Assembly: GCA_938041445.1 (NCBI GenBank)
Contig: CALISO010000029.1
Location: 1-64,000, forward strand
Origin: an uncultured Saprospiraceae bacterium
Lineage (GTDB): Bacteria > Bacteroidota > Bacteroidia > Chitinophagales > Saprospiraceae
DNA length: 64,000 nucleotides
Reading direction: 5' to 3'
The notes under the pieces are model-generated. The model was not told where the DNA came from. It was given only the letters and a program-made list of their open reading frames with translations, and made no database searches. Shown one piece after another: positions 28,098 through 30,443 of this stretch. Position 1 is the stretch's first letter. Each line of letters starts with the position of its first letter. A program made the position numbers and the translations under genes.

Positions 28098-28511
28098 ATG
28101 AAAACAATCACACAATCCCTTCCAATTAGTGTCTTATTAATCGCTGCTGTAGTAAGTCTTGCAGGTATCTTTAGTTGTAAGCCATCTATGGATGATCAAG
28201 TAAGTAAGAGGTATGATGAAGTAATGGCAGTCCACGATGAAGTCATGCCACTTATGTCAACTACAAGCAAGCTTCGCAGACAGATCAAGAACCATAATCA
28301 TGGTGATGCTGGTCAACTCATCGCTGACCTCAATGCTGCTGACGAATATATGATGGAATGGATGAGAGACTTTAAAGTACCAGAAGATCTTCCTGTCGCT
28401 GAGCAGCTTAAGTTTATCGATATAATGGAAGAAAAAGCTGTGAAAATGAAGCAAATGTTTGATAAATCAATAACGAATGCAACAAATTATACCAAGAGTC
28501 ATCAACATTAA
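28098..28511 (+). CDS. Small His-ended lipoprotein upstream of SCO1
   Basis: 137 aa. A lipoprotein signal ends at the lipobox GIFSC (Cys about residue 27). The mature part is helical with KRYDEVMAVHDEVMPLMSTTSKL, a pattern shared by a small Bacteroidota family sometimes annotated as viral A-type inclusion protein; it ends in SHQH. The role is unknown. His and Met residues in the first helix could bind copper or heme, which would suit the SCO1 and cytochrome c genes that follow. Its 3' end overlaps the SCO1 start by 35 bases. Confidence 0.7.
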   Translation: MKTITQSLPISVLLIAAVVSLAGIFSCKPSMDDQVSKRYDEVMAVHDEVMPLMSTTSKLRRQIKNHNHGDAGQLIADLNAADEYMMEWMRDFKVPEDLPVAEQLKFIDIMEEKAVKMKQMFDKSITNATNYTKSHQH

Positions 28512-29109
28512 ATGTATTCTCTTCTTTGCTCTTATTGGATTGTTATCCTGTGAACAAGAGAGTGGTTCCTTGCCGATACTTGGTCGCACGGAAGTAGTTG
28601 ATGGTCAGACTATTCACCATAAAATCAGAAATTGGGAATTTGTCAATCAAGACAGTGTCCTGATTACTAATGATAGCCTAAAGAATCACGTCTACATTAC
28701 AGATGTCTTCTTCACATCGTGCCCAACCATCTGTCCAAAGGTGATGAAGCAAATGTTAGTATTACATGATGAATTTAGGGATGATGATCTAGTCAAACTT
28801 GTCTCTTTCACAATAGATCCTAAACGAGATGATGTAGACCGACTAAAACTCTACAGCAGCAATCTAGGTGTAACGAGTGATAAATGGCACTTCCTCACCG
28901 GAGATAAAGATGATGTCTACGAACTTGCAAATGACTACTTCATTGTTGCGTATCCAGATGCTGATACACCAGGAGGATTTGACCATAGTGGTAAGATAAT
29001 CTTGACTGATAAGGATGGGCACGTGAGAGCATTCGCGGAAGGGACAGAGCCTGAGACTATTCCACGATTTATTAAAGATGTCAAAACTCTGATGAAAGAA
29101 TATGAGTAA
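28477..29109 (+). CDS. SCO1/SenC copper chaperone
   Basis: 210 aa, lipoprotein (lipobox GLLSC, Cys25). The thioredoxin-like fold carries the copper ligands C82 and C86 in TSCPTICPKVM and the conserved His170 in GGFDHSGK. SCO proteins load copper into the CuA site of cytochrome c oxidase or keep its cysteines reduced. The start overlaps the previous gene by 35 bases, and the stop overlaps the cytochrome c gene by 8, so the three are co-translated. No oxidase subunit is in the window. Confidence 0.95.
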   Translation: MQQIIPRVINIKCILFFALIGLLSCEQESGSLPILGRTEVVDGQTIHHKIRNWEFVNQDSVLITNDSLKNHVYITDVFFTSCPTICPKVMKQMLVLHDEFRDDDLVKLVSFTIDPKRDDVDRLKLYSSNLGVTSDKWHFLTGDKDDVYELANDYFIVAYPDADTPGGFDHSGKIILTDKDGHVRAFAEGTEPETIPRFIKDVKTLMKEYE

Positions 29110-29533
29110 GATGATGATATTGATATTAGCGATTATGTTAGTTGGAATAGCATCAACTATGACTCTACAATCCTGTAATGATAACACATATGTACAGGGA
29201 GCAAGACTTTACACCTTCCACTGTGCTAACTGCCATATGGAAGACGGAAGTGGACTGGAGAATGTAATCCCAAGCATCATAGAATCGAAATACTTTGGCG
29301 CCAAACTAGATTCACTTCCGTGCTTAATAAGACATGGCAAAGCGAATCTAACTACCTCGCATAGTATGATGGTAGATATGCCCGTCAACTATCAAATGAC
29401 TGAGTATGAGATCAACAATGTCATCAATCACATCTTCGTCACTTGGTACCCAGATAGAGAGGCAGTCACTATCCAAGACACTAAAAAAAATCTCAAAGAC
29501 TGCCCAGTCCCAGCGATGAGATACGGTCAATAG
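29102..29533 (+). CDS. Mono-heme cytochrome c lipoprotein
   Basis: 143 aa. A lipoprotein signal ends at LQSC (Cys25). One c-type heme site, CANCH at residues 41-45 (FHCANCHMEDGSG), starts a class I cytochrome fold; the later MVDMPVNYQM offers the Met axial ligand and TEYEINNVINHIF the closing helix. It should carry electrons at the periplasmic face. It overlaps SCO1 by 8 bases. The link to SCO1 suggests service to a terminal oxidase encoded elsewhere. Confidence 0.92.
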   Translation: MSKMMILILAIMLVGIASTMTLQSCNDNTYVQGARLYTFHCANCHMEDGSGLENVIPSIIESKYFGAKLDSLPCLIRHGKANLTTSHSMMVDMPVNYQMTEYEINNVINHIFVTWYPDREAVTIQDTKKNLKDCPVPAMRYGQ

Positions 29534-30219: not shown

Positions 30220-30324
30220 TCAGCAATCACATTTAGCACAAGTCTTAGGACATTTCTTGCAGTGTGACTTGCCTTTCTTCTTAAACTTCTTGCAACAATT
30301 CTTTTTACAACATTTGCTTGCCAT
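30220..30324 (-). CDS. 34-aa Cys/Lys-rich peptide, metallothionein-like
   Basis: ATG 30324 to TGA 30220 encodes 34 residues, nine of them Cys (5, 6, 10, 11, 22, 25, 29, 32, 34) and many Lys: MASKCCKKNCCKKFKKKG, then HCKKCPKTCAKCDC. The paired CC motifs and the CxxC/CxC tail are typical of metal-thiolate peptides. I do not recognise a named family. A TACTTTTG element at 30388-30395 precedes it on the same strand. It is convergent with the SCO1/cytochrome unit, so a copper or zinc buffering role is an attractive inference, not shown. Confidence 0.65.
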   Translation of the reverse strand: MASKCCKKNCCKKFKKKGKSHCKKCPKTCAKCDC

Positions 30325-30387: not shown

Positions 30388-30395
30388 CAAAAGTA
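30388..30395 (-). promoter_or_regulatory. Candidate -7 element (TACTTTTG) for the Cys-rich peptide
   Basis: A minus-strand TAnnTTTG match 64 bases upstream of the ATG at 30324. No clear -33 element was found. Confidence 0.45.
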
Positions 30396-30443
30396 ATCTT
30401 TTATCTAGAATAAGTCTAATTTAACATAAGGAATATCTAAGGC

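Follow-up and report, generated by a model that had tools for sequence, protein, structure and literature searches.

A short Cys- and Lys-rich gene and its relatives

The window, a stretch of 64,000 nucleotides from contig CALISO010000029.1 of an uncultured Saprospiraceae bacterium, carries on its minus strand a very short gene that is the subject of this analysis. The coding sequence, stop codon included, extends from 30220 to 30324 and specifies a peptide of 34 residues, MASKCCKKNCCKKFKKKGKSHCKKCPKTCAKCDC. Nine of the residues are Cys and 13 are Lys, and the Cys residues make up two CC pairs, a CxxC and a CxC. A first-pass annotation, made from the letters of the window, had described a 34-residue Cys/Lys-rich frame with nine Cys and these motifs; that description is exact at these positions, the strand, which it did not name, being the minus strand. 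The start of the peptide is unambiguous because an in-frame TAG lies two codons 5' of the ATG. The family to which the peptide belongs probably has a part in the handling or recovery of iron, not of copper.

The first-pass annotation had also held that random AT-rich DNA would hardly give such a frame. Cys richness by itself is only moderately unusual: a Cys content as high as that of the peptide occurred in one of the 853 open stretches in the window and in one stretch across 30 shuffled windows together. What upholds the gene is conservation. A relative from the same genus carries a homologue at 74% identity, and the two copies differ by seven synonymous and three non-synonymous changes, with 2, 1 and 9 differences at the three codon positions. 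Among the 14 members of the subfamily nearest to the window peptide, 791 synonymous and 318 non-synonymous codon differences were counted over 91 pairs, against 27 synonymous and 162 non-synonymous for all possible single changes. The groups for these counts had been collected by protein similarity, a criterion biased towards synonymous differences. Identity of the core was how the Dyadobacter group had been selected; its count of zero non-synonymous differences follows from that choice and was not used. Because the homologues are conserved and the codon pattern is biased towards synonymous change, the frame is, on sequence grounds, a real gene. The same evidence rules out a chance open frame. 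The 3.35-Mb draft genome from which the window derives holds one match to the peptide.

Alignment of 51 diverse members revealed six invariant columns: Cys 10, 11, 22 and 25, Lys 16 and Pro 26. Four further Lys are at least 90% conserved. The invariant Cys residues form a core, Cys10-Cys11-x10-Cys22-x2-Cys25, encoded at 30250-30297 on the minus strand. The spacer between the CC pair and the next Cys is 8, 9 or 10 residues across the family and 10 in the window peptide. The subfamily of the window has an additional N-terminal CC and C-terminal CxxC; since the N-terminal part varies in other members, what all have in common is the CC-x8..10-C-x2-C-P core. The four invariant Cys would fit a small metal-thiolate protein. 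The AlphaFold model of the peptide is uninformative (mean pLDDT 72, pTM 0.35, one helix at residues 8-16).

The spacing of the core is that of FhuF. According to PMC8068687, CC-x10-C-x2-C is the [2Fe-2S] ligand pattern of Escherichia coli FhuF, and the authors termed it unprecedented. Residues 240-260 of the 262 in E. coli FhuF read VRRTCCQRYRLPDVQQCGDCT. When 18,950 NCBIfam models were compared with the 51 members at E ≤10, only three models were touched, all of them FhuF, by 44, 15 and 7 members (best E 0.0008). None of the same 51 peptides touched these three models after shuffling. In Pfam, FhuF_C was the most frequent match (4 of 51 members, best E 0.0041). The FhuF models considered were PF11575, TIGR03950, TIGR03951 and NF007932.

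The family was traced by several searches. The first, among 100 relatives, gave matches at E ≤1 in 23 genomes, although many of the weaker ones look like chance hits. With a profile built from 11 members, matches came from 115 of 398 genomes in the same taxonomic family (58 of 112 genera); with a profile of 51 members, they came from 34 of 395 genomes in a phylum sample and 64 of 395 in a class sample (44 of 197 genera). Each of the three profile searches reported one match per genome. We read 67 of the 115 matches from the family, 30 of the 34 from the phylum and 30 of the 64 from the class. All of these carry the four Cys, which the profiles did not individually require. Homologues with conserved Cys spacing, on which the first-pass annotation had hung its proposal, were thus sought in relatives and found. 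More than one copy is present in genome G080, which has two, and in Splendidivirga corallicola, which has two on one contig (L138 and L145); the L145 copy lies near a ferritin gene. A search of named genomes with a DNA pattern in which the four Cys were fixed beforehand returned 68 stretches. Many Dyadobacter were matched, the D. fermentans copy being locus L162, together with Aureispira, Fulvivirga, Splendidivirga, Jiulongibacter, Lishizhenia and Marinimicrobia, and also three Pasteurellaceae genera and some Acidobacteria-type metagenome-assembled genomes (MAGs).

The window peptide had no Pfam match at E 10 and one weak NCBIfam match, and its PDB sequence matches reached only E 1.5 to 8.9 (ShTK and antifungal proteins). 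Neither the family nor its sequence was found described in the literature searched, a scope outside which subscription papers and preprints lay. The peptide belongs to an unnamed bacterial family. Many copies in this family span just 24 to 70 codons and may be missed in annotation.

A Fur-type box and the genes behind it

The sequences upstream of the homologues share a palindrome, TTATTTrGA-N5-TCYAAATAA. At the window gene it appears as a 23-bp Fur-type operator, TAAATTAGACTTATTCTAGATAA, at 30401-30423 on the minus strand. With its own site left out of the matrix, this box scores 21.8 bits; the next-best site in the 64 kb scores 10.9, and the top scores of 20 shuffled windows lay between 8.6 and 16.3 bits. 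The box was first seen in 139 upstreams, of which 75 match at 12 or more of 14 positions compared with 1.2 expected. Because it was discovered there, the test to trust is that on held-out loci: a box of at least 18 bits lies within 300 bp upstream in 35 of 52 such loci, versus 2 of 64 upstreams of neighbouring genes. The held-out loci were picked by profile, and two of them (L304 and L323) repeat training loci L165 and L146, both without a box. According to PMC5609570, the Fur box of Riemerella anatipestifer, ATTTAGAATTATTCTAAAT, was predicted from Fur-dependent promoters, four of which have support from electrophoretic mobility shift assays; the consensus of the family box equals it as given there. 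The source genome has one Fur gene and two weaker FUR-family genes.

The TAnnTTTG promoter match reported in the first-pass annotation is real. This element of the -7 type, TACTTTTG, occupies 30388-30395 on the minus strand, five nucleotides behind the box. TAnnTTTG is no more frequent in the window than expected (57 matches against an expected 62), and the match draws its weight from this spacing instead. Of 54 non-redundant box regions, counting that of the window, 14 have the element at the same 5-nt offset, and exact matches at offsets 2 to 7 number 22 in these regions. Since the element lies five bases behind the box, a bound repressor would cover the promoter, and the position of the box suggests that Fur represses the peptide gene. 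In the Marinimicrobia-type loci L135 and L179, a flavodoxin-like gene, recognized by eye, is divergent from the peptide gene, with a Fur-like site, ATTGCGATTTAGTCTCATT or similar, between them; this site is weak in L135.

A strict form of the box pattern occurs at 43 sites in eight genomes of the taxonomic family, with 1 to 9 sites per genome, and at a single site when read backwards. The peptide gene accounts for five of the 43. The other 38, together with two looser sites of the source genome, give 40 non-peptide box loci, whose targets were identified by Pfam for one representative per group and by similarity or by eye for the rest. DUF4856 genes (7), NqrA-like genes (6), IscS-like cysteine desulfurases (4) and multiheme cytochromes c (4) are the most frequent. 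They are followed by HemA (3), LuxR-type response regulators (3), FeoA-type genes (2), Sdh-type cytochromes (2), one imelysin, one CDGSH gene and the source-genome ferritin behind a weak site; six loci have another gene or none. These targets are for the most part an iron, heme and Fe-S regulon, and the box outlines it as a compact one.

Some of these loci have features of their own. The NqrA-like genes at the six loci (L223, L230, L239, L243, L249 and L259) have an extra N-terminal stretch, Pfam having been checked for one. A CDGSH iron-sulfur gene with an adjoining dehydrogenase-like gene lies behind a Fur-type box in the source genome and a congener (L200 and L240). In three genomes a Fur-type box precedes a gene for a LuxR-type response regulator (L228, L233 and L254), so an iron signal may feed a wider regulatory step.

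Neighbouring genes and an iron-handling interpretation

A ferritin gene lies within 2 kb in 26 of 166 peptide loci, in every case within 600 bp. The corresponding figure for other box loci is 0 of 39, a control that omits L247, the source-genome ferritin behind a weak box. In further peptide loci, ferritin adjoins 1 of 24. The totals keep three pairs of duplicate loci (L129/L086, L130/L084 and L181/L080). The linkage spans about 13 genera and four arrangements. Ferritin is upstream on the same strand in g36, g5, three f25 genera and Jiulongibacter; downstream in g4, g96, Fulvivirga, Splendidivirga and a Bacteroidia MAG; divergent in g43; and convergent in g113. In the f25 loci, the box sits between the ferritin stop and the peptide. 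For the four ferritins checked, the best models are those of non-heme ferritin, with scores below the cut-offs. The source genome has a ferritin of the non-heme type on another contig, behind the weak box. The second recurrent neighbour is a TonB-receptor/imelysin operon, found at five loci, with gene families assigned at one of them; its Riemerella counterpart is listed as putatively Fur-regulated in PMC5609570.

The plus strand of the window has, at 28098-29533, a single unit made up of a short lipoprotein-like gene, SCO1 and a cytochrome c gene. The first-pass annotation had pointed to SCO1 and cytochrome c as neighbours. They are indeed nearby, but they are convergent to the peptide gene and hence not co-transcribed with it. 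The synteny of homologues with SCO1 that it had suggested as a check is largely absent: within flanks of 1.5 to 5 kb, SCO1 was found near 2 of 166 peptide loci, for which reason a copper/SCO1 linkage was rejected, and cytochrome c near the window peptide only. The lipoprotein-like gene and SCO1 are both found next to the peptide gene at one further locus, L272, where the former was recognized by eye. Of the proposed metal-thiolate buffer or chaperone in a copper/heme unit, a thiolate protein is compatible with the four invariant Cys, and the copper/heme setting is not supported. The Fur-type box and the recurrent ferritin and TonB/imelysin neighbours indicate an iron context instead.

Computation gave a gene family with invariant Cys, a box with a regulon, and a ferritin linkage in a minority of loci. 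The reading that we tentatively prefer, at somewhat less than an even chance, is a miniature Fe-S or Fe-thiolate protein, under Fur control and serving ferritin, that acts like Bfd without belonging to the Bfd family. The peptide would take part in the response to iron starvation as a small iron-sulfur or iron-thiolate protein of the cytoplasm. With ample iron, Fur-Fe(II) bound to 30401-30423 would lie over the promoter and keep the gene repressed; a shortage of iron would allow the peptide to be made. Its four invariant Cys would then bind Fe(II) or a [2Fe-2S] cluster, and the Lys-rich loop would dock on an acidic partner, most likely non-heme ferritin. By passing electrons, or accepting Fe(II), the peptide would bring about the release of stored ferric iron, as the ferredoxin Bfd does for heme-containing bacterioferritin. 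That the family is a new, very small class of ferritin-serving iron-sulfur proteins, Fur-switched and reducing or unloading non-heme ferritin in Bacteroidota by means of one FhuF-type CC-x8..10-C-x2-C site on a Lys-rich stem (24 to about 70 residues), is possible but rather doubtful.

Several results weigh against a ferritin-serving protein. No ferritin lies within 2 kb in 140 of 166 loci, the window locus included, and a ferritin-free function in most genomes would require another partner. Nine of the 26 ferritin loci come from genus g157 and five from g36. With these nine ferritin loci in one genus, and with 27 of 139 loci sharing the Dyadobacter core, the loci are not independent events. 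Two of three congeners had no match, so the gene is patchy in distribution. A strong box is absent from 17 of the 52 held-out loci, and no clear Fur box is present at four Pasteurellaceae loci (L158, L160, L176 and L177). The Pasteurellaceae homologue lies 20 to 31 bp behind a gene that, judged by eye, resembles rdgC; given this neighbour and the lack of a clear box, the family may act otherwise there. The structure model is weak, with no PDB match at E 10. Alignment of the family with E. coli FhuF residues 240-260 by hhalign gave E 0.006 and a probability of 6%. Every match of the family to an FhuF model is below its cut-off, and the window peptide scores 9.4 bits against TIGR03950 (cut-off 137.9; E 0.82). 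The likeness to FhuF is for these reasons a shared motif and not proven descent, and it is perhaps convergent.

The many loci without a ferritin neighbour would suit a general buffer or chaperone for Fe(II) or Fe-S in low iron, one that holds iron or carries clusters to apo-enzymes and is adjacent to ferritin through shared regulation only. The IscS-like, cytochrome and CDGSH genes of the box regulon favour it too, and the extra CC and CxxC of the window subfamily could bind more metal. However, ferritin turns up next to the peptide gene in several arrangements, and none of the other neighbour gene clusters spans as many unrelated loci, the larger ones being Dyadobacter synteny; we consider such a buffer somewhat unlikely. 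Bacillus FbpA, FbpB and FbpC are short, basic, Fur-controlled proteins. The 13 Lys of the peptide, with Lys 16 invariant and four more strongly conserved, and the Fur-type box would agree with a small basic RNA- or DNA-binding regulator of the same kind, its Cys core being a structural zinc site or iron sensor. Four invariant Cys in FhuF-like spacing and the linkage to ferritin argue otherwise, and this explanation is improbable. Such a core is not known for FbpA/B/C.

Two further explanations have still less in their favour. The FhuF-type motif and the TonB/imelysin operons adjoining some copies might point to an FhuF-like module that has become detached and that, with or without a partner, reduces ferric siderophores. 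Such a module would lack the siderophore-binding body of FhuF, and the recurring neighbours include no siderophore biosynthesis or reductase gene; we judge it very improbable. The original guess, a thiolate buffer or chaperone for copper or zinc with a link to SCO1 and cytochrome c, would account for the nine Cys and the nearby genes in the window. The orientation and rarity of those genes, the Fur-type box and the absence of any match to a metallothionein family in Pfam or NCBIfam make it scarcely credible.

Comparison with metallothioneins, FhuF and Bfd

Metallothioneins are, like the peptide, short and Cys-rich. They are under a zinc/copper switch; the peptide instead has an ordered four-Cys core, a Fur-type box and no family-model match in Pfam or NCBIfam.

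FhuF has the C-C-x10-C-x2-C ligand motif that the window peptide presents at Cys 10, 11, 22 and 25. Its spacer is x10, whereas that of the peptide family is 8 to 10 residues. FhuF comprises 262 residues; the peptide comprises 34, has stops on both sides and lacks the siderophore-binding helical body of about 240 residues. FhuF_C matched 8 of 395 class genomes at E ≤0.01, two of them above the cut-off, in a search that scored at most 21 candidates per genome, such that the absence of a full FhuF is not firm. Four of the eight matches have internal stops, and the length of the open frames ranges from 20 to 122 residues; none was therefore taken as a full FhuF.

According to PMC12363616, the recovery of iron from ferritins is in general poorly understood, bacterioferritins being the exception. 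A mini-protein that has a Fur-type box, sometimes lies next to ferritin and occurs in 44 of 197 class genera is a directly testable candidate for ferritin iron release. If the family does form a new class of ferritin-serving iron-sulfur proteins, it would rank with the smallest Fe-S proteins that stand alone, and it would supply a partner to non-heme ferritins, for which little is understood of how iron is released. If the ferritin-serving reading is right, the peptide would resemble Bfd, a small Cys protein whose gene adjoins an iron-storage gene and is under iron-responsive control. For the peptide family, a ferritin gene lies close by at 26 of 166 loci, the window not among them. Bfd has the Fer2_BFD domain (PF04324), which had no match in the source genome; the peptide has no match to any Pfam model at E 10. 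Finally, bacterioferritin, the partner of Bfd, contains heme, whereas the putative partner of the peptide is a non-heme ferritin without a heme relay.
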